This document shows positions 7,731 through 64,000 of a DNA stretch of 64,000 bases, one piece after another. The notes under the pieces are model-generated. The model saw nothing but the letters and a program-made list of their open reading frames with translations, made no database searches and was not told where the DNA came from. Position numbers and translations under genes: made by a program. Numbering within the stretch: the first letter of the stretch is position 1; every line of letters begins with the position of its first letter. The stretch lies in IMG/VR virus record IMGVR_UViG_3300044971_003552, positions 1-64,000 of that record. One strand, given 5' to 3'. The DNA is from a virus.

Positions 7731-7795
7731 GTCGGCTTCCTTGCGAGTTTTGTGACAAACTTGATTTTCGCAATTTAGCAGAAAAATCTTTTTTG

Positions 7796-18065: not shown

Positions 18066-18091
18066 TTAAAGCTTTAATAAGGGAGAAAAAA

Positions 18092-32804: not shown

Positions 32805-33248
32805 ATGCCAGCGGCTGAATATAATTTTAGCATAGAAAAAGGTACAGCTTTCGTCATCGCTTTTGAATATAGGGATGATCTTCAAATTCCTATCGATATT
32901 ACTAATTGGTGTGCCAGAATACGCTGGATAGAAGACCAGAATACAAATCCAACTATTAGAACATTCATAACGAATACTCAAACCAATGATTACTCTTTTG
33001 TTATAGATCCTAAGCTTGGTAAAATAATACTAAAAATACCAGCATCAGCTACAGCCGCTTATAATTTTAATAGTGCTCTTTATGACTTTGAACTTCAAGA
33101 ACCAAATGATCTTTATAGTGGAGGAGGAAAAAAGATTTTTAGAATCTTACAAGGAACCGTGTCATTGGTAGCCAGGAACGTACCTGGAAGCGATGCTTTT
33201 GCTTGCGATACCAATGTTCAGAATGATTGTGGAACATGTAGCCCATGA
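32805..33248 (+). CDS. BppU-like Ig-fold baseplate/tail protein, copy 2
   Basis: 147 residues, paralogue of 20982-21380 (same TNWCAR, DLYSGGGK and RIL blocks). The C-terminal extension carries four Cys (FACDTNVQNDCGTCSP includes three), possibly a metal site or disulphides. It overlaps the start of the giant fibre gene by four bases (ATGA), implying a fixed partnership, as copy 1 has with its downstream fibres. Confidence 0.7.
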   Translation: MPAAEYNFSIEKGTAFVIAFEYRDDLQIPIDITNWCARIRWIEDQNTNPTIRTFITNTQTNDYSFVIDPKLGKIILKIPASATAAYNFNSALYDFELQEPNDLYSGGGKKIFRILQGTVSLVARNVPGSDAFACDTNVQNDCGTCSP

Positions 33249-39200: not shown

Positions 39201-42200
39201 CGCTTTGGCCGACAACCGGAATAACAGTTGGGTATAACGGATACAATTATTCTCCATTAAGTGTTTCTTTTAATACCGGTATTCCTAAAGTTTTCAATAC
39301 CCACGGTCTTGGTTCAACAGTTAGTCCAATTAATATCCAGTGTACAGGATTGATTAGTCAGTCTACATACGGAGATATGAGAATAGCGTTACTAGGATAT
39401 GACTATCAAATAGTAAATATATCTGGTTCTTATTCTCCTCCGTCTGGTTCAAATTTTGTAATTTCAAAAACGAATCAAGACTCATCTGAAACAACATTAT
39501 TTTCTAGTTCTAATAACTCAAATATTAATATTCAGGTTACTGGTTGGCCCAAAGAAATTATTAGTTTAAAACTTTACAAAAACAATGATCAGCTAAACTT
39601 TTCTACCTTAAATATAAACATAAATTCTACATTTCATCCAATAAACATTGGTAAGAGACTTGATATACTTAATGCAATAGATAATATTAATACAGACTAT
39701 GTAGATGCTATGTTTTATTTTAAACCTATTATTACTCTTGATCAAAGAGTCTGTTTAAATAATAAATATCGACAACCAGATAATAGAGTATTTTTCAATG
39801 GTAATCAAATCACTATTCACAATCTGTCTACTCCTAGGTCTTATTTGAATACTAATGATCAAATTAAAATTTTAAGCTTGAATAGTGGTATTGATTTTAT
39901 TGATTCTGCAGTTAGTAGAAACTGTAGAGTAGTTGGCACAGGAGTAAACAATACAGCTATTTATTGTATTCCTAATAATGGTCCTAAAATAGTGTCTCCT
40001 AATTCTATATATAATAGTGATGATCTATGGAGAAGAAACTCATTAAGATATGCTCATTCTTTCGGAATTAGAGCCAATCAGGAATTACCAAATACAGGAA
40101 TTATATCATTTGTGGGAGCTGTTTCTGGATACTTTTCTATTCCGCAAACTAATAATTTGTACCACCATACCTATGGAGGATATACCGCTAATTGGCCAAT
40201 GGACCCTTACGGAAAGAGGGTGTCCGCTCCTCTAACAGGCGTCTTTTCTATACAAAGTAACTCTTCTCAATGTGTTTCTGGTACTTTGTGCTTAAGCATT
40301 AAGGGGTTCTCTAATACAAATTTCAACAGTATCCCGGACTTAACAAATAGATCAGGTATAGGAAAACAACCACATGCTATAGATACGGATGCTGTTAAAG
40401 GATATATTAGACCATGGGGAACAGCAAATAAAAAATACTATTTTGATTTCTCGGACAATGCACCAGAATTGAATGGATTATATTACATTAATGATAAAAC
40501 AGATCCATACAATATTACTATTAATATACCATACAATATTAATTACTTAGGTAGAAGTGGGTTGGTTTATATTATAGACAGCGATTATAATATAAAGTCT
40601 AATATAAATCCTAATATAGATAACTCTTTTGTCTTATCAGAATCTAATGCTTCGGTTGTTACGGATACGATTCCTCCACAGCCAGTAGCTTTAATTGATT
40701 ACAAAATCAATTCCTATAGTTTAAAATCAAAAAGATGGAAACATCTAGTACATTTTAATAATCCTACCAGCATACCATATAGTGGCTACAATATAACATT
40801 TGATTCTTCACAGCAGCAAGTTTCACAATTACTATATTTGAATCCAGATAAAATAAATATTTTAAATATAGATTATTCTATGGATTATGGCGAATCATAT
40901 ACTCAATTAGATCAAAATAAGATAAAAATAAAAACCACAGATGAAAACCCTATTTATCTTCGAATACAGACTAAAGACGGTTCTCAGAAATGGTCACAAT
41001 CCCTATTGTCTTCTGCTCCCAAAATTAATATTCATGGACTGAATACATATTCTATAGACACTAATACTATTTCTTATAATAATCAAAATAAAATATGGAC
41101 AATTACAGCTATTATTGATAATATAAAAAATATAACAACTAATAGAGACATTTCTGTTGTCGCGTCGGATGAAACTGGAACAGACAGTACAAACTTGATC
41201 ATTGATTTGACAAAAATTCCAGAAATAGCTGTTCCTAAAGTTACTTATACCTATGTTAATAGTCCTATTCCATGGTCCGTTAATTATGATATAAAATATC
41301 TGCCAGATCCATACTTAATTGTTATGTCGGGTTATCCTGGTCCTAGTTTTAATATAAATAATGAGACATTCAATAATAGCACAGGTGTAAAAATTCTTTA
41401 CGGAAATGCCGGATCAGTTACTGGGGTATTCAATACTACACTATCAGTTAAAGACTATATTACTGGTGAAAATTTATCATCTCAAACTGGAGTTATTAGA
41501 GTATTGGCTATGAACCAGACTAAGCCTGGCTATACCCTGGATCCCATAGGATTGCCTGATGATATATATCTAAATATAGATAACGACAATAGCTCTTCAT
41601 CATTTTATTTTTATGTGGATGCTATAAATACATCACAAACTAGTTTGCTAGTAACCTTAACACAAGATGTTGGATATACTAGAAATATTATAACAGAATA
41701 TAGTAACGTATCAAATAGATATAAAATCACGGTCAGTTTAGTTGGCTCAGCAGGATATTACTCCAATAAATCTATTACAGTATCATTATTACAACCACAA
41801 GTTAACAGTGAGGATGTAGAGGTCTGGGTTCCATACACCTATACAAAACTAGTTAATATTACTTTGTATAAAACTTTAACTATAGATCGTTATACTCTTC
41901 CTCAACCTTTGTCTTTCGATAAGCAAGATACTTGGTTTTTACAATTCTATTTATTAGGAGGTATTTTTTCTCATAGACCAGATCAAGCCCCGTCAGTTAG
42001 ATTATCAAACCTACCTAATAAAGGAACATATCCTAATGACCCATTAGAGTATAACATTAGATATGAATACGATAATGCAGATAAAAGATGGAAAGTTATT
42101 GCTACAGGAAGATCAGATAATTTTGCTAGAATGACAGATAGCTTAGGGGTTAAATCTATCAAGATTTTTGCTGAAGACAGTATCAACACTGCTGCCGACA

Positions 42201-45200
42201 CAATTAATCTTACTTTTACTCAAAATAGATATTTAACAAACTTACAACCAGTTACATATTCTATTCCTAATGAATTTTACCAAACGACTTTTGATGTCAG
42301 ACAAGCTTCCGCCAACAACAGTATTATGATTAGTCTTCCTGCTAACCTAAGAGAAGATACCATTGATTTAAGTCTGGTTAACCAACAATACGACCCGGAT
42401 CTACTGCTACATCAGTTTTCATACTCTGGTTCTCCGATTTATGATAAGTGGGATACTTCTATAAGTTTTGGTAATATTAATACTTCCTTAAATGATAATC
42501 AATTATCATCTATAACTGTGAGATGCAAGGGTATATCATCTGATAAAATATATGCCATAGGTAAACTTAGTTTGATGGAATTAGACAGTTTAACTTTACC
42601 AGGATTACCCATAAAGATCACAGGAGTAGCTCGACCCAACTATTCGGCAAAGGAAGGGTCTCCGTGGAGAATTACTTTTAAGACATTGCACGGTCTAGAA
42701 AATCCTAATTTTCCTCCTACAATTCTATTGTCTGGTTTGCCAACAGTATGTTCCGGATATTATCCTTCTTTACCTCTAGAACAACAAAATGGATGCTTAG
42801 AATCTAGAAATTGGAGTCCGTCAGATAAATCATGGAATTTTGCCTTTACCGGTTTTCCATTGTGTGGTATCGATGGAGTGAAACCATTTTCAATAACAGC
42901 CATAGACACAGATACTATTCAAAATATTTCCTTAAGTTTTGATACTATCAATGCTGCTATTGATTACACATCATTAGATGAGGAAGGATTTGTGCATCCT
43001 GTCCCTCAGATAGTGCCTGTGGGGCAGGTTGCGGATCCTATACAATTGTCTCCCCGTTGCTCAGAACCTCCCATAAATATTTCCTATCGTTTTGGACCTC
43101 AGAACAGAGCAACATGTCCTATACCAACAGGCATTACTGGCTGGATAGTATCAGCTTCCGGAGGAAATAATCTATTACCCTCGGGGCTATCCTATACTAT
43201 CAGTTTTCCTGGAGGTAGTCCAAAGAGACCATGGAATAATCTAGGCAGCGGCACTTTAACGATTACTGGAGATCCTTTATTTTTTGCTAGCGGTACAGAG
43301 TATGCTGAAAAGCTTATCTTGACTGTTTTTGACGCTAGAGGCAAGTCGATACAAAAAATTATTAAGTTTACAGATATATCGTCTCCTAATCCACCTTCTC
43401 CTATTGATCTTCCTATTTATTTTGATAGCGAAAAACCTATTTACACTCGTAGACTACCAGGACAAAATAATATAACAAACCCTAGTGGAACAACACCAAT
43501 AGATTGGCAAAGTTATCCAGATTTACCATTGGTGTATTGGCCAGCGGCGAATGCTAATAATTTAAAATGTGACAGTATATTACCACACAACCAGTGTCTC
43601 GTAACGTCTTTTGCTTATAGTGGGGCTAATTTTCAAACTTTTGACTTCAGAGTATTCATAAAACCAGAAAGACCTATTCTTAGTGCTGGAAGTACAGTGT
43701 ATGTAGAATTTGATAATAATCCCGGACATAACCGGAATAATAGATATCAATTATCCAGTCAGGGTAATTTTCCTAATATACAATATTTTATAACAGCAGA
43801 TGGTCATGATTTAGGAACGGGCATAGGCAGACTGGTTCAGGAAAGAACCCCAAGATTTAATACTCAAAATATCCAAAAGTTTTTAGGCAATACAGACATA
43901 ACAACAACAAGATCATTGCTAGGTTGTGGCAGCTTTGCTTCAAAGTCCAGTGTGCAGGAGGCTGGTTTTGGTCTCTTTGGAAGGATGTATCCAAGTATAC
44001 AGGCTACAATTCCTAGCGGAGAGGTATTTTCTTCACAGATAGAAGGAAATCCACCTCCTGTTCCTTTAGCAAATCTTTCTTTGTCTACATTAGATAATAT
44101 GTATACAAGTGGAGTTCCACAGATATCAACTGTTAAAACTTTTGATTGCTGGCAAACGGGTTACTTAAGAATAAGCGGAATACTTTTACCCTCTCCGTCA
44201 GTTGAACTAACAGACCCTGCTCCTGCCGCTGAGGCACCATTTGCATATAATGGACAACAATATTTTATTGGTAGTCGTTGCGTATATGGTAGTAATCCAG
44301 ATGATAGAAATTTAATAGGAAATAAAAGAGATGTTAATATAGACTATAAACTTAAAAATATACTGTCTAATTCTACTTATGCTCAGGGATCAGTAGGACC
44401 AAATCAAGCAATATCATTTAATCATACCGAAAACACAGGAACAGTATTTTCTTTATTTATTAATAATACTCCATCTATTTTTCCAACATATAGATCAAAT
44501 GCTATAAGATATGCTGAAAATGAGTACTTTTGGGTTCACAAGGGTGGAACAAAAAATCAAAGTATCACACAAAATAGTTTTCCTCCGGTTGTCATTGGTG
44601 GACTAAAAGATATTCATGCTCTAAGTGGGACAAGTATTTCTGGTTACAGTATTACAGCAGTAGGAGGATATATTCCTTTTAATGAGTATTCAACTCCAAT
44701 TCCTTATTATAGGTTGCCCGATGGATCAAACTGGTCAACATCTAACTATCCTCCATTTATTACAGGTGTTATACAGAGTAGAGTTGCTGTTGAAAACTCA
44801 ATAACTTACAGCCACTCTGGCTCGTCCAATTCTCAGTATCAATTCATACAGTCTAGCTTATTAAGTAATCCATATAATATAGAAGTGGGAGATACTATCT
44901 ATATTAGCTTCCCAGGCACAGACATTCCAGCACAAACTATTGCTCTGGGAGTGAACAACATAAGCAACAATACATTATTAATCCCGTACTCTAGAGTTGA
45001 TAAACCAGCTATCCTCAATGGAGCTGCGAAATTTTCATTTTTATCTAGCGTAACCGGTATAGAATCAAGCAGTATTTTTATTAAACACAAAAATTTACCA
45101 TTAGTTACGGGAGATAGTATTGATGTTGTTTGGAGTTCGGGCAGTTCTTTTAATAGTATTGCTCCTTTAACAAATTCTATGACAGTAAGTTCTTTTAATA

Positions 45201-45814
45201 GTACATCTGCTGTTGTATCTTATAATGGTGTCGGATCTTCTTTTTCCAGTGGATTATCTATTGGGCATTCAGTAGATATATATAAAAATTATCATAATGA
45301 AATTAATATTGGATCATTAACCTTTTCTAAAGAAGGCTATTGGTTATTTAGCTTATCAGGTATTCCAACTAATGTTTATAAAGACTATAGATACAAGATA
45401 GTTACTGTAGAAAATAGCGGTATGCCAGTATTTTCTGGTACAGATTTGGTTGCCAAGAAGTACGTTTCTTTACATAATACCTATATTAGCAAACCTATTA
45501 AAATATTACTCAATAATAATTATTCTATTCCAAACAACAACGGGGTATGGACATTGTCTTTTAGTGTAGATGGAGGAAGTAGACCAATTAAAAATAACAC
45601 CCCAGAAATTATGATTAACAATAGTATTTGCAATTTTAATAGAACACTAAATTCTCTTACTATGCAAGACTCTTACGATGTGGAAAATGATAGATGGAAT
45701 ATTACTATCGGAAATAATAATAATTATGATTGGAGATATGATGGCTCATTTGAATTGAAAGTTTTTGACGATACCGGATTTGATACTAAAACTATTCTTT
45801 TTAGTAATGGATAA
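33245..45814 (+). CDS. Giant tail fibre/adhesin, 4189 residues
   Basis: Largest gene of the window. The first 60 residues resemble those of the 45817 protein, then a short collagen-like stretch follows (GLQGDIGLVGPKGDPGKDG). Next come shaft repeats (GGTNNTIFSSG, GGTNNQLFNSN) and a YadA-like left-handed roll at about 640-700 (ALIGQNNRIIGDNSLAVGSN). A putative-Ig domain lies at about 1365-1465 (NSIPDQSAIINELFTYTIP). Beyond 2450 a domain of about 100-150 residues recurs several times (W..xF...GG ... P.ixLSxLP ... W.ixxTG ... G.xxIxAxD). No catalytic motif seen. It probably forms a long, flexible host-recognition fibre. Confidence 0.85.
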   Translation: MSIVRVEEDIQPLKYLVVTQQRDPESVITTNVVISDTRNNRINLVSIEKGLQGDIGLVGPKGDPGKDGVIFDVLPINSGGTNNTIFSSGHVIYYDGSKLSSSNYTIQDILNNAGNSSNLTGIIAESGLYVNLVNNNARLGVKTGGGLTINEQNTIVVDDTIVRKVELNLGSIEGVVPIEKGGTNNQLFNSNRLLYYDGFKIASFPLATGRILLSGTTIDIVAGSGLVGGGLTSLPSGSVVLNIGGSSDILVETNSISLSNTGIAGTYNKITTDEKGRVVSGSNLSASDIISILNYTPWHIGNDGENSGLDADLLDGQQGSYYLDLSNSTGILSADSLPVQSAPGLYTKVQVNNKGIVINGQDINYGDIVNALGYRPVSATGDIIYGPLTINGNTTLDGNDLVVKDNLPLLGTNSPFILPNEPRGFSFMYGGLTPQTGILAYYPGERELRLITNIGATGIVDAGSGDNFNNEVDGGDANSVYVIGNITGDMNIVLLRSVADSLYVSRFADQTISGNKTFADPLAVRGQISVIPNINQSTPPFNVGANTRMVENLNVDLLHGKNLDYYNDASNMTGLFNYEKVQFNSLEGTIGFIPRFDNRTNNPSRTISDSVIQQTGQIVRVNNNFNFSVGTSNTGSFDANRSALIGQNNRIIGDNSLAVGSNNLVNANNSIALNSKSQALTDNSIAAGNHGYTWSENQVSFGSFRELNNISTAQGQHSTITLGLSGVQTDGAWVNMSPSINIPKNKTLSYTLEVLMNKAAGTGAALFTYESGIIKNSTFRNPNNPSFLTNITSILKDATKREIYNDSQRRRYYYHFNLDNNNFIQNLDVTAPDIKTLDIKPYNTESLYKYIPQYIESYGTYEKTNDGELVLNIPKPITYGWFYQNSGSPDIIVKSYFHGMTTGSVSRLNFTSATKHTPFSKQYQVSSIISDTLFSVKETSWSGRLTNDELILDPQVVSDIDSKNSIITNAGFLYTNSPDIYNVPTNITNVLHTGMYVRYYPHGSGYSYVVPQTGKIIAKTSSSITFDTPFTGLTIFNQSINTQAVLEFTQYTRHVFDSSKTVHLNISGYGQQSLTSLSGAYAASYCGQPTYSIKLSGIPNNIFTDTIATIRPATTNSGTVSLVSHRNISGTYTRDATQYKKYEGIYIRQPSISGNSRISIYNQNLEPIELPSVPFNYSFVCGYGDDDNGSFEIYKSGLYSYLKFKSVSGIDISLSCGQDFDYVYKVANLMDVSYIKNYLYGIDYDLQQSGCYFYSQYPVNSGAGYVFYPDTLETSDLTALPLGLLPDKTYFPVNIKLVNSSYIFDLSKSSGGQPITIINDNNRKSSYKIFPRIRDAYNKDIYNIRIKVFDMSGRNYEKPFSIHIDPVNVRTHIRNSIPDQSAIINELFTYTIPNNTFPNKTKISSVRLSDGRVLPQWLAFDQSKQAFSGTPLAANSGTIELLVKATGVDLIVSDVFKLSVTDSYPSISNYIVDPVLSFDIKNIFLSSISVPQNASYDTHVGKLSADGGYNPYLIFKTSSNSFNGYSHFGGNVLTECSASISQFSTVTLSGIIPYLSGHNILVSGTNNQSQQIVSKIVPSSIFNITVSSGSNFLLFNNPNSNYTGIIFSGNKIFSNIQNWDNNYYATNVTTTGIYLNRNFTNLNSESTGLTCFTSGYNILLNSNVNFTDNIIGIFSTPINESGFYYIDQLKNFTTNYQSATRCPVTLSNNDNIKGFDTETNEYIIEKGYYSTGLISFYTDVGYSDISISSPEHLNFENDESSVYLRFLSRNTGVLPTSQGYSKISGIARSSFNVNNGYFFPNSQPYATGSVLVNVDKNHGYKLANNNIINQIPVQFLDTQENNSNRKPKNNLFDIDDVEGNTIYVKDKNNYLLKEIGKPDYFEQAISGIYTTNGFGFSAAFVHNDYKIYDLDYGGSPIWPQDKIIDVNSSLGSSSSSFVSNSRLLDFTQGFFFNGTVARSGSHIVYNGTFPSLVYSGYVMSVFSTDPLWPTTGITVGYNGYNYSPLSVSFNTGIPKVFNTHGLGSTVSPINIQCTGLISQSTYGDMRIALLGYDYQIVNISGSYSPPSGSNFVISKTNQDSSETTLFSSSNNSNINIQVTGWPKEIISLKLYKNNDQLNFSTLNININSTFHPINIGKRLDILNAIDNINTDYVDAMFYFKPIITLDQRVCLNNKYRQPDNRVFFNGNQITIHNLSTPRSYLNTNDQIKILSLNSGIDFIDSAVSRNCRVVGTGVNNTAIYCIPNNGPKIVSPNSIYNSDDLWRRNSLRYAHSFGIRANQELPNTGIISFVGAVSGYFSIPQTNNLYHHTYGGYTANWPMDPYGKRVSAPLTGVFSIQSNSSQCVSGTLCLSIKGFSNTNFNSIPDLTNRSGIGKQPHAIDTDAVKGYIRPWGTANKKYYFDFSDNAPELNGLYYINDKTDPYNITINIPYNINYLGRSGLVYIIDSDYNIKSNINPNIDNSFVLSESNASVVTDTIPPQPVALIDYKINSYSLKSKRWKHLVHFNNPTSIPYSGYNITFDSSQQQVSQLLYLNPDKINILNIDYSMDYGESYTQLDQNKIKIKTTDENPIYLRIQTKDGSQKWSQSLLSSAPKINIHGLNTYSIDTNTISYNNQNKIWTITAIIDNIKNITTNRDISVVASDETGTDSTNLIIDLTKIPEIAVPKVTYTYVNSPIPWSVNYDIKYLPDPYLIVMSGYPGPSFNINNETFNNSTGVKILYGNAGSVTGVFNTTLSVKDYITGENLSSQTGVIRVLAMNQTKPGYTLDPIGLPDDIYLNIDNDNSSSSFYFYVDAINTSQTSLLVTLTQDVGYTRNIITEYSNVSNRYKITVSLVGSAGYYSNKSITVSLLQPQVNSEDVEVWVPYTYTKLVNITLYKTLTIDRYTLPQPLSFDKQDTWFLQFYLLGGIFSHRPDQAPSVRLSNLPNKGTYPNDPLEYNIRYEYDNADKRWKVIATGRSDNFARMTDSLGVKSIKIFAEDSINTAADTINLTFTQNRYLTNLQPVTYSIPNEFYQTTFDVRQASANNSIMISLPANLREDTIDLSLVNQQYDPDLLLHQFSYSGSPIYDKWDTSISFGNINTSLNDNQLSSITVRCKGISSDKIYAIGKLSLMELDSLTLPGLPIKITGVARPNYSAKEGSPWRITFKTLHGLENPNFPPTILLSGLPTVCSGYYPSLPLEQQNGCLESRNWSPSDKSWNFAFTGFPLCGIDGVKPFSITAIDTDTIQNISLSFDTINAAIDYTSLDEEGFVHPVPQIVPVGQVADPIQLSPRCSEPPINISYRFGPQNRATCPIPTGITGWIVSASGGNNLLPSGLSYTISFPGGSPKRPWNNLGSGTLTITGDPLFFASGTEYAEKLILTVFDARGKSIQKIIKFTDISSPNPPSPIDLPIYFDSEKPIYTRRLPGQNNITNPSGTTPIDWQSYPDLPLVYWPAANANNLKCDSILPHNQCLVTSFAYSGANFQTFDFRVFIKPERPILSAGSTVYVEFDNNPGHNRNNRYQLSSQGNFPNIQYFITADGHDLGTGIGRLVQERTPRFNTQNIQKFLGNTDITTTRSLLGCGSFASKSSVQEAGFGLFGRMYPSIQATIPSGEVFSSQIEGNPPPVPLANLSLSTLDNMYTSGVPQISTVKTFDCWQTGYLRISGILLPSPSVELTDPAPAAEAPFAYNGQQYFIGSRCVYGSNPDDRNLIGNKRDVNIDYKLKNILSNSTYAQGSVGPNQAISFNHTENTGTVFSLFINNTPSIFPTYRSNAIRYAENEYFWVHKGGTKNQSITQNSFPPVVIGGLKDIHALSGTSISGYSITAVGGYIPFNEYSTPIPYYRLPDGSNWSTSNYPPFITGVIQSRVAVENSITYSHSGSSNSQYQFIQSSLLSNPYNIEVGDTIYISFPGTDIPAQTIALGVNNISNNTLLIPYSRVDKPAILNGAAKFSFLSSVTGIESSSIFIKHKNLPLVTGDSIDVVWSSGSSFNSIAPLTNSMTVSSFNSTSAVVSYNGVGSSFSSGLSIGHSVDIYKNYHNEINIGSLTFSKEGYWLFSLSGIPTNVYKDYRYKIVTVENSGMPVFSGTDLVAKKYVSLHNTYISKPIKILLNNNYSIPNNNGVWTLSFSVDGGSRPIKNNTPEIMINNSICNFNRTLNSLTMQDSYDVENDRWNITIGNNNNYDWRYDGSFELKVFDDTGFDTKTILFSNG

Positions 45815-51000: not shown

Positions 51001-51229
51001 TGAGTTTAGAATAACATATGGAGCCAATAGATACAATAGTAATTTTACTCCGCCAACTCAACCGTTTAAAACCGAAAGAGACGACTATTATCAGCTAGGG
51101 CCGGAGTATAATGTTAGTAAAACGAGCTATAAAACATTTCAGCATTATGCCTTGAAAAATCCTGCTACCAATCAAGCTTGGACATTGCCAGAAATTAGTG
51201 GGATGACACTTGGGGTTAAAAAATTATGA
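48056..51229 (+). CDS. Adhesin with repeated LamG-like domains, 1057 residues
   Basis: The N-terminal half (MATLFFEGFDKG ... about 1-320) is a jelly-roll-like domain found on phage tail proteins. Two LamG/concanavalin-like domains follow: about 500-700 (SVSLLLHGDATPIVDST) and about 740-1000 (VSLLVQSNKPSIIDLS), each ending in a YIDEFRIT or YIDNFRVT strand. The protein probably binds host glycans. AAGGAG precedes the ATG; GGGGTATAATTATG 33 bases upstream is a possible promoter word. Confidence 0.78.
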   Translation: MATLFFEGFDKGIIFNQLDPNYWSTQFKQYPKYAFGGYLPDDLGYTYNSPNGGFLPSGSYITNVSEVGNNAYPGFGSPPGFLAFSNIEIENTSSVEIPTYLQCSGFPLSSGNTTYLAMRCLGLESKHTEYSNYPYRHTFFSYNSGDLPQLTVNIVKITGLTNLISINGKNETLALEVQQNDTTLGYFDLNIVNNITGYRIASVYNTNNTILTPAHTISNRGYSSIMSRWVHLEFSVDESQEEPTLFINAEDINLPVVNFNNEINREDWEIGLPISGFKFNNLRFYNRTYSSSIINTMTDFGFQGQIGPQVGQSFYYMFGKNWLLDDLVLIDSAVPEPSYWLGSTARVSQLAPGVSGQVFINNVIGTVPARLIDDVLRADGIKDWTTNSTTRLGNSSVFVTSHRKALSYLDSDLNSIEAINSGAIDAVAFSSRQLYINVDGGNSPIYSFPYDNNSIWRETLNEAVGGVKIYNSARKKFLDTKFVNVFRSGVSDPLESSVSLLLHGDATPIVDSTKIPKSITNNNVIVRGNNTKFSNGSLYFNDTSSYLSINHSDLANNPFTIECWIYFNNHNQSISLFERTPNVFEQRPTSCATSYYKFLASTTGVSFVRGNNCDKTLLFPSGAQTGVWNHLAVVRTTGNAFRCFLNGVANTGYIISDCDNRLCYNEDGNMNFQRETQGIFQGTYNLNFLNNANIIASSEYWNGNTTISMPSPKIGQPKPLQTSDEYFNNVSLLVQSNKPSIIDLSSNPKTINNNGVVFSNNRSRFGHKSLYFTGGKTLSFANSSDFDFGSDDFTIDFWYYLNNTNSNTTYNILTSNNITLQALNGGATIRIYVTDSNSISYNFRTTNGNTVLGTGSSYSISLDKWYYVNITKYAGDMFLYLVPSQDSVTPFFSWPLYLFKNESVSSPFGGFNTYNNFPINFNGFTIGDSNTNLTHNLYIDNFRVTKGLARIVTRLNAPVSAPKETFGISLPDENFDSSVYIDEFRITYGANRYNSNFTPPTQPFKTERDDYYQLGPEYNVSKTSYKTFQHYALKNPATNQAWTLPEISGMTLGVKKL

Positions 51230-52221
51230 GTGATTATACTCGAATTAAATTAAGAAGATCATCCTCCAACGAGTGGAGCGGATCGAACCCCACTCTTGCT
51301 CTCGGAGAAGCCGGATATGAAACGGATTCTCGCAGACTCAAAATAGGAGATGGATTAACTGCGTGGTCAGGATTAGATTATGTCAAGGTTCATCCATCAT
51401 CGATAAGTCATCCACAAGTTACTTTAAGAATTGGTGATGGTTTTGATCAAAGAATAGGAATTAACCTTTCTAATAATGAACTATTTAATATAGCTGCTTC
51501 GGGTGATACCACACTAGTTTATGACGATTCTTCAAAGACATTAGTATTTAATACTCAAGCCGGATCATCTTTTATAACACGTAATAATATCGTAAATGCT
51601 TTAGGATATGTTCCTCAAATTAGTGGTAGCTATAGCGCAATATCTCATAACCATTCTATAGCTCAAATTTCTGGACTTCAAACTATATTGGATAATAAAC
51701 AAGCTTCAGGAAGCTACTCTTTGTCTAATCATACCCATAACCTGAAACTTAGCGTTGGAGATGGTAGGGTTTTGAATTATGAAGTTAATGATTTTTTAAA
51801 TGTTATTGGTAGTGGCTATACTAATGTTGATATTGATGATTATACAAATACTCTTATTATCAGTTCTTTAGGCAATAGCGGAGTGTTGACTTTTAATAAT
51901 AGAAGCGGGGTTGTTAATCTAAATTATCCTGACATAACAGGAGCATTGAGCTATGTTCCTCAACCAACCGGCAACTATGCTCTTAGTGGCCATACTCATA
52001 GCGTAAACCAAATAGTCGATCTTGATAAATTAGGTTGGACATTCAATAACTCTACTAATCAATGGAGCTTTGCTTATCCTATTATCACTAACATAGATAG
52101 AAGAACACCGTTGTCATCATCAGATTCTGGTAATCCAGGAGATGTATGTTGGGATATATCTTATTTGTATCTTTGTGTGGGTGTAAATTTATGGCGCAGA
52201 TTACCTCATAGTTCATGGTAA
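51226..52221 (+). CDS. Tail fibre with Mtd-type N-terminal domain, fourth copy
   Basis: 331 residues. Residues 4-50 (RIKLRRSSSNEW ... GEAGYET ... LKIGDG) match the other three Mtd-type domains. The shaft repeats FVPQxSGxY/HNHSIAQISGLQ-type units twice (NALGYVPQISGSYSAISHNH and later SYVPQPTGNY), as is usual for trimeric fibres. C-terminal domain short, ending SDSGNPGDVCWD...RRLPHSSW. ATGA overlap with the preceding gene. Confidence 0.82.
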   Translation: MSDYTRIKLRRSSSNEWSGSNPTLALGEAGYETDSRRLKIGDGLTAWSGLDYVKVHPSSISHPQVTLRIGDGFDQRIGINLSNNELFNIAASGDTTLVYDDSSKTLVFNTQAGSSFITRNNIVNALGYVPQISGSYSAISHNHSIAQISGLQTILDNKQASGSYSLSNHTHNLKLSVGDGRVLNYEVNDFLNVIGSGYTNVDIDDYTNTLIISSLGNSGVLTFNNRSGVVNLNYPDITGALSYVPQPTGNYALSGHTHSVNQIVDLDKLGWTFNNSTNQWSFAYPIITNIDRRTPLSSSDSGNPGDVCWDISYLYLCVGVNLWRRLPHSSW

Positions 52222-54383: not shown

Positions 54384-55430
54384 ATGGCCAATCGTCTATT
54401 TTATGCCGTTCAATCAGTACAAATTGCTGGACCATCAGGCACTAAATTAACAAAAAATCCGGACTTCGACACTGTTCAAGGTCTACAAAGCGTTGGTATG
54501 AACACCAACTTTAATCTTGAGCCAGTTTATCAGCTTGGTCAGCTAGAACTATACGACAACTATGAAGAGATCCCTGAAGTAGAAGTTACTCTTAATAAGG
54601 TTTTAGACGGACAGCAGACCATTTATGCTATGACCATGGGAAGTGGTAAGCTTGTTAATTTAGCAAATAATCGTTGCGGCGTTAAACTCAATCTTTATCC
54701 AGACACTAATGAGAGTGCTACCGGTATTCCATTAGCTAGTGTTCAGTGTAATCCTTCCTATCTATCATCTGTTAGTTATAATTTCCCAACAGAAGGCAAT
54801 TTTACAGAAGAGGTTACTCTAGTTAGCAACGACAAGGTTTGGCTAACAGGATTGTCCGCTGCCAATACGCAACCTACTCTAGCATCAACAACTGGTGTGG
54901 GTATTCTTCGTCGTGGCTTGTGGAGCAAGTCTTCGGTGCTACCAACAGGAGCAGGTGATGGAGTGACTGGCTCCAATAAGGGTGGTATTCCTTCGGGCGC
55001 CAAGATTAATAGCGTCAAAGTTAGTATGCAGCTTGGTCGTGAACAGATTCGTGAACTTGGTAGTAGAACCCCATACTATCGTTATATCAAGTTTCCTGTT
55101 GAGGTTTCAACAGAAATCGAAGTAACAGCAACAGAGGGTGATATGGTAGGAGCTGATGGGGCAGCAAACACAGCTTGCAGCAACCCCAAAGCTCTTAACA
55201 ACAAAGAAATCAAGATTGTTCTTTGTGATGGTACAGTTATTGACCTTGGAGCCAAGAACAAGCTAACAAGTGTTAACTTTACTGGTGGAGATACTGGCGG
55301 TGGTAATGCTACAATCACTTATAGCTACAGAACCTATAACGATTTTGATTATACTCCTCCAACAGGAGCTGGTCAAACATTTGCAGATGTAGTTGAAGCT
55401 GGTCTACCAGTGCCCAGCACAGATTACTAA
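54384..55430 (+). CDS. Major tail tube protein
   Basis: 348 residues, beta-rich, with ALxxxQSVQIAGPSG at the start and a tube-like core (YQLGQLELYDNYEEIPEVEVTLNKVLDG). An inserted Gly/Ser-rich domain (about 150-300) may decorate the tail. GGGAGAG precedes the ATG, and codon use is GC-richer than in neighbours, as for the capsid gene, in line with high expression. No separate sheath gene was seen, so a siphovirus-like non-contractile tail is likely. Confidence 0.8.
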   Translation: MANRLFYAVQSVQIAGPSGTKLTKNPDFDTVQGLQSVGMNTNFNLEPVYQLGQLELYDNYEEIPEVEVTLNKVLDGQQTIYAMTMGSGKLVNLANNRCGVKLNLYPDTNESATGIPLASVQCNPSYLSSVSYNFPTEGNFTEEVTLVSNDKVWLTGLSAANTQPTLASTTGVGILRRGLWSKSSVLPTGAGDGVTGSNKGGIPSGAKINSVKVSMQLGREQIRELGSRTPYYRYIKFPVEVSTEIEVTATEGDMVGADGAANTACSNPKALNNKEIKIVLCDGTVIDLGAKNKLTSVNFTGGDTGGGNATITYSYRTYNDFDYTPPTGAGQTFADVVEAGLPVPSTDY

Positions 55431-56958: not shown

Positions 56959-57849
56959 ATGAAAACAGAAAATTTTAGTGTTGTTGTAGATGGCGTTGAA
57001 AAGCATTATGCTGTTCGTTCACCCTCATTAAATGATCAAAGGGAAGCCCAGAAAGCATATAATCAAGCTTTCACTGATGCTATTAAAAGCAAGAGTATAG
57101 TGAGAGCTAAGATGGATGACCTTCTAGAAGAACAGGGTTTATGGAATAGCGAAAAACAGGCCAAGTTCACCACTCTGCAACAAGAATTGCTAGATGGAGA
57201 AAAGCGTCTGGCTAAGGGTGGTTTCAGCTTAAATGAGGCTAAAAAGCTAGCTCTAGAAATGAAAAATGTTAGAGCAGAAATTAGAGACCTTATTAGTGTT
57301 CGCACAAGTCTAGATAACCATAGTGCAGAAGGTCAAGCAGATAACGCCAGATTTAACTACCTAGTATCAGCTTGTGTGGTGTATAAAGATAGTAATGATC
57401 TATACTTTAAAAATTTGGAAGACTATCTTAATAAGGCTGACGACCCAGTAGCTCTATTAGGTGCTCAAAAATTGGCTAACATGATTTATGGACTGGATAA
57501 TAACTTTGAAAAAGGCTTACCAGAAAATAAGTTTTTACAGAAGTATAAGTTTGTTGATGAAAAACTTCGCTTGATTGATAAGAAGGGTCGTTTGGTGGAC
57601 GCCGACGGCAGACTTATTGACGAGAGAGGACGATACATCGACGAACAAGGTAGTTATGTTGATAAGTATGGCAATAGGGTAGATGCTGATGGAGATTATG
57701 TTGTAGAATCAGAACCGTTCCTTGATGACGAAGGTAAACCAGTTGTTTTGGATGAAGAAAAACCAGTTACGGAAGAAAAGAAAACTGATGAAACTAAAAC
57801 ACCAGAAACTTCACCGCAACCAACAACAGAGACTCCCAAGACAGAGTAA
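56959..57849 (+). CDS. Candidate tail chaperone with heptapeptide repeats
   Basis: 296 residues. The first 200 are helical (long coil about 15-115). Residues 204-259 contain eight repeats of seven residues with consensus (R/S)(L/Y)(I/V)DxxG: RLIDKKG, RLVDADG, RLIDERG, RYIDEQG, SYVDKYG, NRVDADG, then two weaker. A Pro/Glu/Thr-rich tail ends the protein. The repeat resembles a stack of beta-hairpins or Ca-binding turns. AAAAAGGA precedes the ATG. A strong terminator follows, before the tape measure gene. Confidence 0.65.
   Translation: MKTENFSVVVDGVEKHYAVRSPSLNDQREAQKAYNQAFTDAIKSKSIVRAKMDDLLEEQGLWNSEKQAKFTTLQQELLDGEKRLAKGGFSLNEAKKLALEMKNVRAEIRDLISVRTSLDNHSAEGQADNARFNYLVSACVVYKDSNDLYFKNLEDYLNKADDPVALLGAQKLANMIYGLDNNFEKGLPENKFLQKYKFVDEKLRLIDKKGRLVDADGRLIDERGRYIDEQGSYVDKYGNRVDADGDYVVESEPFLDDEGKPVVLDEEKPVTEEKKTDETKTPETSPQPTTETPKTE
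57568..57735 (+). repeat. Coding repeat, eight 21-base units
   Basis: Eight in-frame units encoding the (R/S)(L/Y)(I/V)DxxG heptapeptide of the preceding gene. Six are clear and the last two diverged. Codons differ between units, so the array is old or selected at the protein level. Confidence 0.8.
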
Positions 57850-57932: not shown

Positions 57933-60900
57933 ATGAGCAAAGGATTTAATCTAACAGCAGAGCTGAATCTACGTGGTCCCTCTAATATTAGGACAGTAGT
58001 AGCAGATATTCGTAGACAAGTAGGATCAGTATCCGTAAACATTACTCCAACAGTCAATAGACAATCTATTCGTACTATTGCTAGTACAATTAGGAGTCAA
58101 TTATCTAATATAACTTCTGATGTTAAAATAAGAGCTAATACAGCATCATTAAGAAGTATTGGTGCTGATATAAGACGACAATTAGGAGGGGTTACAGCTA
58201 ATGTTAATGTAAGAGCCAACCAATCTTCAATACGAGCAGTAGCTTCTGATATCAGACGTCAATTAGGATCAATCAATACCAATGTTAACGTTAGATTTAA
58301 TACTGCCGCAGTTACAACTTATGGTAATAACTTAAGAGCTTTAAATAATAACCTTAATCAGATAACAGCATCAGCAACTAATGCCACAGCAGCAATTAAT
58401 GCTCTTACAGCAGCTATGAGAGGAGCATCAACAGCTGCAGCCAGTATTAATAATGCTTCTGTGAATGTTGGCAATCTTGGAAGAGCCGCTGGTGGGGCTA
58501 GGAATAGTATTGCTCTAGCTAGCAATGAGATGATAGAATTTGGTCGTCAGTCAGGATTGGCTTTTAGAAGATTTTCAGCTATTACAACTGTTACTGGTAT
58601 TGTTTACGGACTAACTAATGCTATTAGGCAAGGGGTTGCATCCTTTATAGACTTTGATTTACAGATGACAAGAATTGCTCAGGTTACTGGAGATGCAAAA
58701 AATGAGTTGGGAGCTGTTGCCAACACTATTACTAATTTATCTACTACATTAGGTGCTAGTTCGGCTGAACTAACCAAAACTACGGTAACATTAGCTCAGG
58801 CTGGTTTAACAGCAAAAGATACTGCAACGGCACTTAGGGCTCTAGCTCTTAGCGCATTGGCTCCGTCTTTTGACGATATGAATCAGACGGTAGAAGGTTC
58901 TATTGCTCTTATGAGACAGTTTGGTATTGGAGCAAATCAATTAGAGATGGCTCTGGGCAGCGTCAACGCAGTATCTGCTAAATTTGCTGTAGAAGCTAGT
59001 GATATTATTACGGCTATTCAGCGTACTGGTGGTGTGTTTGCTTCTGCCAGCAAAGGAGTTAGTACTGGTACAGATGCTCTTAACGAGTTTATTGCTGTAT
59101 TTACTAGTATACGAGCTACTACTCGCGAAAGCGCCGAAACTATCGCTACCGGCCTAAGAACTATTTTTACTCGTGTTCAACGAGCAGAGACTATTGAATC
59201 TCTCAAAGAATTTGGCGTTACTCTTACTGATCTTGAGGGTAAATTCGTAGGTCCCTATGTTGCTGTTCAGCGTTTAAGTGAGGGTTTATCAAGACTAGAT
59301 CCACGAGATCTTAAATTCTCACAAATTGTTGAGGAGCTTGGAGGATTCAGACAGATTGGTAAAGTACTCCCTCTTATCCAACAGTTCGCTACTGCGCAAG
59401 ATGCTCTAAGCGTTGCTCAACAAGGTCAAGGATCGTTAGCGGCAGATGCTGCTAAAGGACAACTAGCTTTAGCCGTTCAAATTCAAAAGGTTCGTGAAGA
59501 ATTTCTTGCTCTTATTCGTAGCATTGGTGAAACTAGTAGTTTTCAAAATATGGTTAAGGTAGGTTTAGACTTAGCTAGCGCTCTTATTAAGGTTGCTGAT
59601 GCTACTAAAGGTATTATTCCTTTATTGACTATGTTTGCAGCTTTTAAAGGCATTAGTACTGCTACTCAATATATTAGTGGTTTTGGTCAGGGTATACGAG
59701 GTCGTGCAGCAAGAGGATCGGCAGAAGGCGGAAGAATTTATGCTTTTGCTAGCGGCGGTTTGGTTCCAGGTAGCGGAGATAGAGATACCGTATCAGCTCG
59801 CTTAACTCCAGGTGAGTTTGTAATGAGAAAGAGCGCTGTAAAGAGTATTGGAGCTGGTAATCTCTATTCTTTAAATAGAAATAGTGGAGGCATTATTCCT
59901 AGTTCCTCAGATATACAAAGATTTAGCCAAAGAAATCCTACCAATGAATCAGGAATAGTAAAAAGCGTAAAATCTAAAAATAAGAAAACACCACCAGATA
60001 ATGCTCTTGAATCATGGACAAATAATCCTACTCCCCAAAACTTAGCTTTGGCTCATTTTGGCTCAGAAATGCCAATGACACCGACGCATTTCAGACAATA
60101 TATAAATAGACCGACAGCAGTAAGGGGTATTCCTACAAAATCTAATCAGCTTGCTCCTAGTCTGAAGATAGCACAAGGAAATATCTCTAGTTTGAGCAGC
60201 GCTAGTAGCTCGCAGATACAATATATTATCGATACTCTTGGGCTTAATCAAAAGCCACCAATTTTACTAAGTATTCCAAGATTAACAAATAATGCAATGA
60301 GGGATAGCGGACAAGGAGCGTTTAGTGCTGCTTTGGCTAGCTGGATCAAAGCAAATCCAGCACTTCTGGTATCTGATGGTAAAAGAAGAGGTGCTGATAG
60401 AATAAAGTCTACAGACCTAGTAAATAGTCCACAGAATTTTGCTAACACTATCTCTGCAAAAATACCAAAGCAAACTGTAATACACGACTCTGATCTTTCA
60501 TCTTTGACCACCGATATATGGTCTCTACTCTCAGAAGAGAAGAAACAATTTCTTTCTGATAGAGCTGATATTATATGGAAAAGATTAGTAAAAGATAAGA
60601 GAGCAGGCGTTCAACAACGACAAGAAGGAGCATATAAAGTAGGTTCAATAGACCTGATAAATAGACGATCTATGGGTGGATCTATTCAGAGATTTCCTGT
60701 TGGTGGAGAAGTAAAACCAGTTATTCGCACTGTTGGAGTTATTGATTCTGATGACTGGAAAGAAGACCCGGTTGTCGCTGCTCAAATGAAAATGATGGGT
60801 ATTACTAAGCTCGACGAATATAAAGTTCATATGTCTAATTTAGTAGCAGAAAAAAGAAAATCTGGAGGTATTCGAAGACTAAGAACAGTTTTTGGTGCTG

Positions 60901-63900
60901 CAGCAAGTGGTAAGACTACAGCGGCTTACGGTGGTGCAAGATCTCAAGAAGCAGATAACGCCAGGCTACGTAAAACAACTAGACGAGCCATACGAGTTCC
61001 CAGTGACTTAGAAGGATTAGATGAAGTCATTGATACAACTTCAGTACTGGGTCCTCGAAATACTACCTCTTTAAGAGCATCTGATAGAATACGAAATCTT
61101 TCTAGCAGATCTAAAGCTAGTCAAGAAGCAGTTGTGTCCAGAAGAAAAGACAGAGACAGACTATCAGAATCTGGAGTACCCGATCCATCTGGACGTAATT
61201 ATGGATTATTTAATCGTAGACCCGGAGCTACGGACGGTGCTCCAGTTGATACCGGAATAGACGAAGCATGGCTAGCGGCTTCCGAAGTTTCTGGTGTTGA
61301 TCCCAAAAAAGTGATAACTACTGATGTTGCAACCGGAAGAAGAATTGGTGCTCCAACCGTAAGAACCCCGGAAAAAACAACAGTCTTTTCTGGTAATGTT
61401 GGGCCAATGACATCTGGTCATGTTGAGGCGATTATGAAAGGATCGAAGAAAGCTAAGACTCGTCCAGAAGACACCGTAATATATGTTGCTGGAAATACTC
61501 CCATAGATCCATTTACACGAGATGATCAGAGAGAAAGAACAGCTATTTTCCCTCAAAAATCATCTAGCGGACCATCAAGAGTAGGAATGGCTCAAGCGGT
61601 ACTTGGATCGAAAGGATTTAATATCTCTGCTGCTCCAAAAGGAATTGCTCCTGGGGCTTTTCCCAAAGCTTTCAAAATTGAAGGACAAGAAGATTCTTAT
61701 ATTGTCCCAAACAGTACTGGTAATTTTGCCATAATAGGAAATGATAAGCCAGACTCTACCATAGAGAGAAATCGTTCACAAGGTTACGAACCAATAAAAA
61801 TAGCCAGAAATGGAATTAGTGGCACTGATGCTAGAGCGGCCATTATGAGTAATGATCTTGAAGCCATGGAAAGGCTTTTGACTCCAGAAGGAATAGCTTA
61901 TTTAAAGCCTCATATGGCTACATTACAGAAAAGACCAAAACTATTAGATAGTATTCTTGCTAGAATTCAAGAAAATGCCCAAAAAGGAAAAGGAAGGGCA
62001 GGAAGATATTTCTCAAGCCTTGCTGAACTATCAACACTTCCAGCTCGGGTTACTGCAAAAACACCAACTGATGTTGCAACAAGAGTGAAAAATCTAAGAG
62101 AACAGAGAGATATAGACGAAGCGGTCTTAGGACGAAGAGCAGCCAGAATGCTTCCTAGACTTGAAGGACTGGGAAGGTCTTCTGGTGGGACTATTCAAAA
62201 ATTCTTGGATGGTGGATGGGTTCAAAGAATGCAAACAAAACCAGACAGTATCTTACGAGATGAAATGTCGTTATTATCATCTAGTATTATGATGATGGAT
62301 GTTGGAGAAAGAAAAGGATCTGCTAGCACATTTAATACCGGAGCAATCTATGAGGATGTTGGCAAACGAGAAGCTAAAGAAAGACTCGCTGCCATACAAA
62401 AATTCTTACAAGAAAGAACTACAAAAACAGTTGCTAAACTAAAAGAAAAAAAAGGAGCTGGACTAAAATCCACACCCCAATATGACGCTCAAGAGCAATT
62501 AGATGCTATCATCTATTATCAGGGCGGTTCTGGGCCACTCATTAAGGCTATGGCTGCTGGTAAAAAAACTTTCTCGGATAGAGAGAGTAAATATCAAACG
62601 GCTGATGTTGTTGGTAGACTAAATGCTGCTACTCAATTTAAAGCTCCTAAAAAACTTTATAGCGGATTAGGTCCCAGCCAACTAAGAGAAATTATTAAAG
62701 ACACTGGAGTTTCTATTGATGAACTATTGGACAGAAGCGGTGTTGCTTTTACAGCGATGTCTGGTAAAAATGTAGATTTCCCAACCTTCGTTTCTACAAC
62801 AGACAAGAAACAGCAGGCTTTGCGATTTGTTGGCAATCCAGGAGCTATGTTGAACATAGACTCAGCCAATGCCAAAACTAAGGTTATAGATCTACTAAAA
62901 GCTAAAGGTAAAACAGATACGTCTTCTTCAAAACCACAAAGTAGTAGAAGACTTAGTGGTCTTAATAAAATAGATCCTAAAAAATTAGACGTATATGATA
63001 GTGAGAGAGAGTTTATTTTACCTCCGGGTGTAAAATTCAAACTTAATAAAGTTAGTGGTTTTGTCGGTGAAGATTTTAAAGAAACCATCAAACCCGGCAA
63101 AAAGAAGAAATTTGCAGATTCTTATGAAGACTATCTTAATGATCAGTTCTTTGAAAAAACTAAATTAGATATTCAGGCTCAAATGCTCAACTCAGGAGGC
63201 CGAGTTCAACGACTTATGGCTGGTGGAGTAGCAGAAGAATCCGATGTAACCACGTCCACGAAAGCTTCAGTCGGAGAAATTATTAAATTATTAGGATTAC
63301 AAAGAGCAGCTGCTGCTGGAGGCATTAGTTCAACAGATGTATATACAACATTAAATAAACGAACACCAACTCCACAACAAGCAGCAAGTAAAGCTGCTAT
63401 TCTAGCAGAATTTACCAAACAAAAAACAGCACTAGCAAGTAAAGCGGCAGCTAGCCAAACAAGAAAACAAAATAAGGCAACGGCTAAAGGACTAGTATTT
63501 GGTGCCGCTGGATTATTTGGAAGTGCCTTTGCAACCCAACCAGTAATTCAAACTATACAAGACAGTAGATTAAAAGACCCAAATAAACAACATACTGTCA
63601 GTATTTATAGTGGAGTATATAAAAATCAAAAAAGAGCAAGTAGCATAGATGCTAGTTTTGATAAGGCTGTTGACACAATACCAATGCAACAAGCTCAAAA
63701 GGAAAAAAGAGCGGAAATGGTTGCTCAAAAGAAAAAAGCTGCAACCATATTGGGAGGACTTGAGTCTGGCAGAGAATTGAACTTAGACTTTGACAGAACA
63801 TTAGCCTTTGGTGCTGACAAAATTTTAGCAGATCCAAAACAACCAAGATTTAGTGAATTTTCTGATACTACCAAAGTAACCGAGGCTCTGAGCAAAGCTA

Positions 63901-64000
63901 AACTAAGCGTACTAGGTCGTCGGTTAGCTTCTTTAGTGGCTAAAAAACCAGATTTATTAAAAAACATACGAGTCATAACAGCTAGACCAAAAGTAACGCT
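57933..64000 (+). CDS. Tape measure protein carrying enzyme domains (incomplete at right edge)
   Basis: At least 2022 residues, open to the window end. Residues 1-130 hold four repeats of about 37 residues (IRRQLG motifs). Residues 190-560 are the tape-measure core, and GGLVPGSGDRDTVSARLTPG (about 609-628) is a typical tape-measure turn. Gly-Gly spacers with IQRF or VQRL recur at 914-925, 1418-1428 and 1755-1765. Between them: a P-loop (GAAASGKTT, 988-996), a nucleotidyltransferase (PMTSGH 1158-1163, ISGTDAR 1295-1301), an ADP-ribosyltransferase fold (LYSGLG 1575-1580, FVSTT 1619-1623, SEREFILPPG 1690-1699) and a HAD start (DFDRT 1952-1956, ITAR 2015-2018). A hydrophobic segment lies near 1851-1870. 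Confidence 0.9.
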   Translation, partial: MSKGFNLTAELNLRGPSNIRTVVADIRRQVGSVSVNITPTVNRQSIRTIASTIRSQLSNITSDVKIRANTASLRSIGADIRRQLGGVTANVNVRANQSSIRAVASDIRRQLGSINTNVNVRFNTAAVTTYGNNLRALNNNLNQITASATNATAAINALTAAMRGASTAAASINNASVNVGNLGRAAGGARNSIALASNEMIEFGRQSGLAFRRFSAITTVTGIVYGLTNAIRQGVASFIDFDLQMTRIAQVTGDAKNELGAVANTITNLSTTLGASSAELTKTTVTLAQAGLTAKDTATALRALALSALAPSFDDMNQTVEGSIALMRQFGIGANQLEMALGSVNAVSAKFAVEASDIITAIQRTGGVFASASKGVSTGTDALNEFIAVFTSIRATTRESAETIATGLRTIFTRVQRAETIESLKEFGVTLTDLEGKFVGPYVAVQRLSEGLSRLDPRDLKFSQIVEELGGFRQIGKVLPLIQQFATAQDALSVAQQGQGSLAADAAKGQLALAVQIQKVREEFLALIRSIGETSSFQNMVKVGLDLASALIKVADATKGIIPLLTMFAAFKGISTATQYISGFGQGIRGRAARGSAEGGRIYAFASGGLVPGSGDRDTVSARLTPGEFVMRKSAVKSIGAGNLYSLNRNSGGIIPSSSDIQRFSQRNPTNESGIVKSVKSKNKKTPPDNALESWTNNPTPQNLALAHFGSEMPMTPTHFRQYINRPTAVRGIPTKSNQLAPSLKIAQGNISSLSSASSSQIQYIIDTLGLNQKPPILLSIPRLTNNAMRDSGQGAFSAALASWIKANPALLVSDGKRRGADRIKSTDLVNSPQNFANTISAKIPKQTVIHDSDLSSLTTDIWSLLSEEKKQFLSDRADIIWKRLVKDKRAGVQQRQEGAYKVGSIDLINRRSMGGSIQRFPVGGEVKPVIRTVGVIDSDDWKEDPVVAAQMKMMGITKLDEYKVHMSNLVAEKRKSGGIRRLRTVFGAAASGKTTAAYGGARSQEADNARLRKTTRRAIRVPSDLEGLDEVIDTTSVLGPRNTTSLRASDRIRNLSSRSKASQEAVVSRRKDRDRLSESGVPDPSGRNYGLFNRRPGATDGAPVDTGIDEAWLAASEVSGVDPKKVITTDVATGRRIGAPTVRTPEKTTVFSGNVGPMTSGHVEAIMKGSKKAKTRPEDTVIYVAGNTPIDPFTRDDQRERTAIFPQKSSSGPSRVGMAQAVLGSKGFNISAAPKGIAPGAFPKAFKIEGQEDSYIVPNSTGNFAIIGNDKPDSTIERNRSQGYEPIKIARNGISGTDARAAIMSNDLEAMERLLTPEGIAYLKPHMATLQKRPKLLDSILARIQENAQKGKGRAGRYFSSLAELSTLPARVTAKTPTDVATRVKNLREQRDIDEAVLGRRAARMLPRLEGLGRSSGGTIQKFLDGGWVQRMQTKPDSILRDEMSLLSSSIMMMDVGERKGSASTFNTGAIYEDVGKREAKERLAAIQKFLQERTTKTVAKLKEKKGAGLKSTPQYDAQEQLDAIIYYQGGSGPLIKAMAAGKKTFSDRESKYQTADVVGRLNAATQFKAPKKLYSGLGPSQLREIIKDTGVSIDELLDRSGVAFTAMSGKNVDFPTFVSTTDKKQQALRFVGNPGAMLNIDSANAKTKVIDLLKAKGKTDTSSSKPQSSRRLSGLNKIDPKKLDVYDSEREFILPPGVKFKLNKVSGFVGEDFKETIKPGKKKKFADSYEDYLNDQFFEKTKLDIQAQMLNSGGRVQRLMAGGVAEESDVTTSTKASVGEIIKLLGLQRAAAAGGISSTDVYTTLNKRTPTPQQAASKAAILAEFTKQKTALASKAAASQTRKQNKATAKGLVFGAAGLFGSAFATQPVIQTIQDSRLKDPNKQHTVSIYSGVYKNQKRASSIDASFDKAVDTIPMQQAQKEKRAEMVAQKKKAATILGGLESGRELNLDFDRTLAFGADKILADPKQPRFSEFSDTTKVTEALSKAKLSVLGRRLASLVAKKPDLLKNIRVITARPKVT

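Follow-up and report, generated by a model that had tools for sequence, protein, structure and literature searches.

A phage tape measure probably carrying a built-in zone of swappable effector cassettes

The DNA analysed here (the window) is a stretch of 64,000 nucleotides from an uncultured virus (IMG/VR record IMGVR_UViG_3300044971_003552, positions 1 to 64,000), which ends within a giant tape measure open reading frame (ORF; 57933..63998, + strand) that starts with ATG and encodes 2,022 residues in the window. This gene probably specifies a phage tape measure with a built-in, swappable zone of effector cassettes, that is, a platform akin to the polyvalent proteins of phages and conjugative elements, in which 2–15 domains of unrelated activities share one polypeptide (Iyer et al. 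2017, PMC5512222). The original prediction, made from the window alone, described a tape measure fused in one frame to at least four enzyme-like domains. All four segments are present and are conserved in relatives, and the real extent goes beyond that description, since swappable cassettes form a zone in proteins that can reach 7,794 residues.

Translation of the window sequence revealed zero internal stops between 57933 and 63998. The parent contig is 64,617 bp long, and no stop occurs before its end, which brings the frame to 2,228 residues; the truncation of the ORF is an assembly end only. By family membership, the first third of the protein is a tape measure, matching PhageMin_Tail of Pfam (PF10145, residues 265–469, 1.8e-21, 77 bits against a cut-off of 33) and the tape-measure family phrog_28 of PHROG (residues 71–573, 2.5e-28). 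The conserved N-terminal core to which both families match (residues 197–594; 58521..59714, +) is present in 76 distinct relatives. In addition, genes for a large terminase and for portal-like and capsid-like proteins lie on the contig, and the tail genes around the giant ORF place it in a structural gene context.

Relatives were collected by scanning with the whole ORF, which yielded 22 loci, and with the conserved core, which yielded 439 stretches coding for a relative, 80 of which were kept; 76 distinct tape measures were gathered in total. Complete genes, read in a single frame after neighbouring stretches were joined, encode 1,565–7,794 residues, the longest being those of G003 (7,794) and G001 (7,733). 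The carriers form a family of water-borne phages that are large and uncultured. Among isolated phages, the nearest to the ORF are those of the SPbeta group (YomI), which match over the core only (residues ~192–582), and for cyanophage S-SM2 and a marine virus the match is confined to a short linker (residues 604–657). Since these are metagenomic contigs with genes of unusual length, an assembly or gene-fusion artefact has to be considered, but the same architecture occurs in many independent contigs, which come from different metagenomes and keep it in frame without exception, with a ratio of nonsynonymous to synonymous divergence (dN/dS) well below 1. The hidden stop or frameshift that might have separated the enzyme-like domains from the tape measure is absent from the window, and in the independent contigs, too, the fusion is a single frame; extension past position 64000 likewise found the frame open to the contig end and the remaining HAD motifs in place. 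The chance of an artefact is thus negligible, and this explanation is refuted as far as sequence data allow.

Seven profiles (core, P-loop, adenylyltransferase, ADP-ribosyltransferase (ART), HAD, HAD C-terminal part and PD-(D/E)XK-like), together with a profile of a downstream block, were run on all ORFs. The order in relatives is the core, then a zone with zero to several enzyme modules, then, on contigs that extend far enough, the conserved block. In the 24 relatives with both block ends covered, the block is near-constant in length (1165 ± 49 residues, range 1003–1234), whereas the zone is elastic (1365 ± 571 residues, range 410–2,313), and constant and elastic parts can therefore be separated; the overall protein length varies widely although this one block stays constant. 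Linkers of the type GG..Q.F..GG lie between the modules, with 238 in the zones and 0 inside a module where 50.5 would be expected at random, a comparison with some circularity, since linkers bounded the regions from which the module profiles were seeded. The first linker of the window protein, GGRIYAFASGGLVPGSGDRDTVSARLTPGEFVMRKSAV (residues 599–657; 59727..59903, +), recurs in many further copies in the C-terminal half of relatives and in an S-SM2 tail-region protein. It is followed by GGSIQRFPVGG (residues 915–925; 60675..60707, +), GGTIQKFLDGG (residues 1418–1428; 62184..62216, +) and GGRVQRLMAGG (residues 1755–1765; 63195..63227, +), and at this last junction the identity to G001 and G005 jumps.

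Among the 70 tape measures long enough to judge, 25 module arrangements could be detected, counts that do not represent population frequencies in a set enriched by module searches, and 59 of the 70 carry at least one module. With A denoting P-loop plus adenylyltransferase, the arrangements include A-ART-HAD (the window), A-HAD-ART, ART-A-HAD, ART-HAD-A and nuclease-ART-HAD-ART. The P-loop and adenylyltransferase modules are always paired and always in that order; HAD is almost always followed by its C-terminal partner, which is also found alone; and the ART and PD-(D/E)XK-like modules vary in presence between relatives. In the ORFs of the fetched loci, no module profile matched an ORF without tape-measure segments, and in a further HAD-family scan 57 of 58 ORFs had tape-measure segments, the remaining one being a stand-alone homologue; these searches reach fairly close relatives, and the result does not speak to remote free-standing homologues. 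The stand-alone protein has 299 residues and lies on another virus contig (L247, 7677–8576). This distribution bears on the possibility that the gene encodes a polyprotein whose linkers are cleaved while the particle assembles, by a protease of either the phage or the host, with modules that act in the producing cell or in virion maturation and are not injected. The regularly repeated linkers bordering the modules, the awkwardness of threading a very long polypeptide in one piece and a protease-like gene in the window (phrog_3677) would fit such processing. However, linker cleavage is hypothetical, and module copies are almost never free-standing genes, though that would be the simpler arrangement if they acted separately in the cell; we consider this reading unlikely.

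The enzyme-like modules could not be named from direct scans, since almost nothing in the cargo region exceeded the Pfam and PHROG cut-offs, and their assignment accordingly rests on relatives, motifs and structure. The four segments nonetheless stand above chance because each is conserved as a family across other phages and gives strong profile matches inside the ORF (P-loop 1e-90, adenylyltransferase 1e-109, ART 4e-48 and HAD 2e-92, in profiles that include the window sequence itself). The P-loop NTPase-like domain (residues 923–1123; 60699..61301, +) contains a Walker A motif at 60894–60920 (GAAASGKTT at residue 988), whose GK[ST] is kept in 28 of 29 copies. It is followed by a predicted adenylyltransferase of the HIGH superfamily (residues 1143–1346; 61359..61970, +) with TSGH at 61410–61421, within GNVGPMTSGH at residue 1154, and ISGTDAR at 61815–61835 (residue 1295); the x-GH of the T/H-x-GH motif is present in 28 of 29 copies, and the final arginine of ISxTxxR in all. 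A joint AlphaFold2 (AF2) model of the two domains was confident, with a mean predicted local distance difference test score (pLDDT) of 84.8 and a predicted template modelling score (pTM) of 0.80. The modelled adenylyltransferase resembles NadD (5deo; VIA Z 15.3, 2.5 Å over 155 residues) and CoaD (3pxu; VIA Z 15.0) equally well, a tie that does not discriminate between the two specificities; the assignment to the HIGH superfamily is made on the motifs together with the Rossmann-like fold of the model. The structural comparison barely covered the P-loop part, and in profile comparison the P-loop matched over Walker A only.

The ART-fold domain (residues 1560–1714; 62610..63074, +) bears LYSG at 62655 (residue 1575), followed by STT and E.E. 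Its AF2 model was similarly confident (pLDDT 81.6, pTM 0.77), so that structure prediction, which might have found no enzyme fold in these segments, instead returned one for both the adenylyltransferase and the ART. The best structural match is a bacterial ART toxin effector (8za7; VIA Z 14.7, 2.3 Å over 153 residues), and the relative G003 matches PF03496 (3.1e-15). All 18 ART copies retain E.E, and all 18 have STS or a close variant (S.S/S.T). The HAD-like domain (residues 1937–2022 in the window and to 2105 on the contig; 63741..63998, +) starts its motif series with DFDRT at 63786–63800 (residue 1952) and is split by the window end, with its other motifs in the final 617 bp of the contig. 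Across 31 copies, DFD, [TS]AR, K and DD are invariant, and DxDxT is kept in 30. The nearest phage families of the HAD relatives in PHROG are polynucleotide kinase (8e-5) and 5'(3')-deoxyribonucleotidase (1.4e-4), each matched by 4 of the HAD relatives, which indicates phosphate removal from nucleotides or nucleic acid; the sequence comparisons thus point to a putative nucleotide or nucleic-acid phosphatase. Matches of the HAD to PDB profiles were weak (best 0.59), and a profile comparison with T4 polynucleotide kinase gave no usable match.

PD-(D/E)XK-like and zincin-like cassettes occur in the same zone. The segment between the first two linkers of the window protein (residues 660–905; 59910..60647, +) is uncharacterised and without a Pfam match, and several relatives have a PD-(D/E)XK-like domain in this slot. 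That module shows E...PxD...ExK-type residues, of which E, D and K are invariant across the alignment, and it matched no PDB profile; it is a putative nuclease by motif only. An HExxH module of zincin type, LYHEMTHQLF, recurs in about a dozen relatives. Three loci (L131, L148 and L150) show a different metallopeptidase-like cassette, AHE[TS]FHDIQG. A kinase-like motif, D.H..N[IV]G with a G-rich loop upstream, was also noted in G004 at residue ~1142 (L007) and in G003 at residue ~6903 (L026), in regions without a Pfam match.

The modules do not share a single history with the core. In the core tree, the window and G003 are sisters (90% identity, support 100), and yet their HAD modules are only 44% identical; conversely, the window and G001/G005 are 78% identical in the core and 88% identical in HAD. 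Synonymous divergence (dS) between the window and G001 is 1.41 in the core, 0.57 in HAD and 0.24 in the HAD C-terminal part, and the corresponding values for G005 are 1.63, 0.54 and 0.37. Overall, the most similar shared modules have dS of 0.24–0.78, below the 1.41–1.63 of the core. Approximately unbiased (AU) tests rejected both (i) the window and G003 grouping when forced on the HAD tree (p 3e-76), and (ii) the window, G001 and G005 grouping when forced on the core tree (p 3e-9). The stretch of high identity with G001 spans residues 1754–2200, from the linker at 1755 to the next linker at 2187. By these sequence comparisons, phages swap cassettes with one another, and the junctions fall at the linkers. 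The dN/dS of 0.10–0.22 in closely related module pairs indicates that the modules are kept under purifying selection.

How such a protein would work can be proposed from what is established for other tails, in that tape measures exit before or with the DNA (discussed in PMC11126660). The constant blocks would set tail length and form the tail-tip or membrane part, and the cassette zone would leave the tail with the tape measure, ahead of the DNA. The domains would cross the tail largely unfolded and refold in the host, where modules, possibly cut free at the linkers, may act early as anti-host or anti-defence enzymes. Candidate roles are a nucleotide or nucleic-acid phosphatase (HAD), adenylyl transfer (P-loop plus adenylyltransferase), an ART-fold protein, a nuclease and a peptidase. 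With the tape measure and not the head as carrier, the mechanism would otherwise be that of polyvalent proteins. We regard as evenly balanced the broader proposition that a large lineage of uncultured phages possesses a general tail-borne delivery platform, in which a fixed-length ruler is interrupted by an elastic cassette zone, recombination takes place at the glycine linkers (which may also be cutting sites), and anti-host enzymes are traded by cassette swaps within one structural gene.

Several points weigh against a tape measure that carries injected effectors. We infer delivery into the host from general knowledge of tape measures. A normal tail tube is narrow and would probably not admit folded domains, so that passage would require unfolding, as proposed for the cargo of crAss001 (PMC10172136). 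None of the tested modules was found in 11 of the 70 tape measures long enough to judge, and the partial circularity of the linker test also counts here. The window contig ends upstream of the conserved downstream block, placing the C-terminal half of the window gene outside the data, and that part of the protein is accordingly modelled on relatives. A host search in bacterial genome collections returned mixed metagenome bins only. Finally, the canonical arginine of the R-S-E triad, after the strand 1 aromatic, is Ser, Thr or Ala in all 18 ART copies, which makes ART activity doubtful, and at least one module (the ART) may not be a conventional enzyme. The missing arginine and the fast sequence change in several modules would also be expected of pseudo-enzymes, that is, enzyme folds reused as inert bulk or as protein-binding tail parts. 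Inert bulk, however, would need no conserved active sites, whereas the HAD DxDxT, T/S, K and DD residues persist in nearly all copies across deep divergence, as do the T/H-x-GH and the final arginine of ISxTxxR in the adenylyltransferase; we regard the pseudo-enzyme reading as quite unlikely.

The original prediction had also proposed that the domains jointly rebuild, use or strip nicotinamide adenine dinucleotide (NAD) or nucleotide groups in the host at entry. In favour of such a toolkit, the adenylyltransferase fold is near NadD, the P-loop and adenylyltransferase pair resembles NadR, and known ART-fold relatives use NAD. However, the adenylyltransferase is equally near CoaD, the ART copies lack the canonical arginine, and the modules vary independently and are not inherited as a set. 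A nicotinamide phosphoribosyltransferase (NAPRTase; PF04095) gene was searched for in six large related contigs and not found, and the nuclease-like and peptidase-like cassettes of relatives are unrelated to NAD. A dedicated NAD toolkit is not supported and is highly improbable.

Enzyme domains within tape measures have precedents in SPbeta YomI and mycobacteriophage TM4, where the hydrolases breach peptidoglycan; to our knowledge, neither an intracellular-type enzyme set nor cassette exchange has been described for tape measures of this type. The predicted likeness to polyvalent proteins (PMC5512222) is borne out, with unrelated domains in one polypeptide and a phage structural context: both combine several enzyme domains that are unrelated to one another (ART, metallopeptidase, nuclease, kinase-like) in one long protein of a phage, presumed to accompany the DNA into the cell, and both show domain shuffling. 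Those proteins are, however, capsid-packaged, MuF or portal fusions or linked to type IV secretion systems, whereas here the carrier is a tape measure with cassettes between two constant blocks; the term 'tape measure' is absent from that work, and no tape measure is among the carriers it describes. Tme and Sle1 of contractile injection systems (PMC11126660, PMC13277306) similarly join a tape-measure-like protein to an effector domain and are reconfigurable across species, but they belong to bacterial injection systems and have one C-terminal functional domain, unlike the several internal cassettes of the present phage protein. Identity with a tape-measure effector of this kind was rejected, as the contig carries terminase, portal and capsid genes and no sheath match, and the cassettes are internal in complete relatives. 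The cargo proteins of crAss001 (PMC10172136) likewise reside in the tail and are presumed to leave it before the DNA in a partly unfolded state, although as separate proteins in a wide tail barrel, unfused to the tape measure. T4 Alt and MuF-ART fusions (reviewed in PMC9503650) are virion-carried ARTs delivered with DNA, and an ART fold is present here too, but those proteins are head-packaged, single and canonical. The present case thus joins the polyvalent and tape-measure-effector ideas in a phage, adding a layout of fixed ruler and elastic cassettes with documented exchange. No description of a cassette zone of this kind in a phage tape measure was found in the literature searched, in which coverage of subscription journals and preprints was thin.

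If the proposed reading is correct, current assumptions understate both the size and the variability of the protein set that a phage injects on entry, and the cassette zones offer a catalogue from which enzymes acting early against the host and its defences can be mined. A physical question arises as well, namely how multi-domain enzymes pass through a narrow tail tube. Tape measures are textbook rulers, and the layout separates the probable length-setting part from the cargo; it may offer a natural scaffold for phage-tail protein delivery.

In the largest genes, the part beyond the conserved block consists of long segments divided by near-identical copies of GTDTVPAMLTPGEFVVN (6 in G001 and 8 in G003), and EF-hands occur in the C-terminal half of G003 (5.3e-8). 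The C-terminal halves bearing GTDTVPAMLTPGEFVVN lie at 12291–18992 of L025 (G001) and 620–9004 of L026 (G003), and their segments have no recognised fold. A linker of the form GG.VPG.G..DTVPAMLTPGEFV is also found in a tail-region protein of the Synechococcus phage S-SM2, a T4-like isolate (L187, 5002–7302), indicating that the linker is a wider tail-protein motif.

Gene order upstream of the tape measure is identical in a related locus (L003), and the neighbours have no clear family match. A candidate tail tube gene (54384..55430, +) is assigned by position only, its order being kept in L003, to whose counterpart it has no family match. The gene at the tail-assembly-chaperone position (56959..57849, +), just before the tape measure, is similarly kept in order in relatives and lacks a family match. 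A weak tail-terminator match among the genes before the tape measure, together with a search for sheath protein families in seven contigs that gave no match, hints at a long non-contractile tail. The large terminase distantly resembles those of Slash-type and SPbeta-group Bacillus phages, and the portal matched no isolated-phage relative.

Elsewhere in the window, a second giant ORF (33245–45814, +; 4,189 residues), whose sole Pfam match is an Ig-like He_PIG domain (1.2e-8), is probably a giant fibre or adhesin. The genes at 21649–23316, 27349–29166 and 51226–52221 have in common a short N-terminal domain known from tail fibres; Pfam detects Mtd_N (PF18454) in the first, and fibre PHROG matches are common to all three. 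The protease-like gene (6132–7799, −; phrog_3677, 5.8e-60) lies on the strand opposite the structural genes and is a candidate for processing. A homing/HNH endonuclease gene (19231–20934) directly follows a weakly capsid-like gene (18062–19102).

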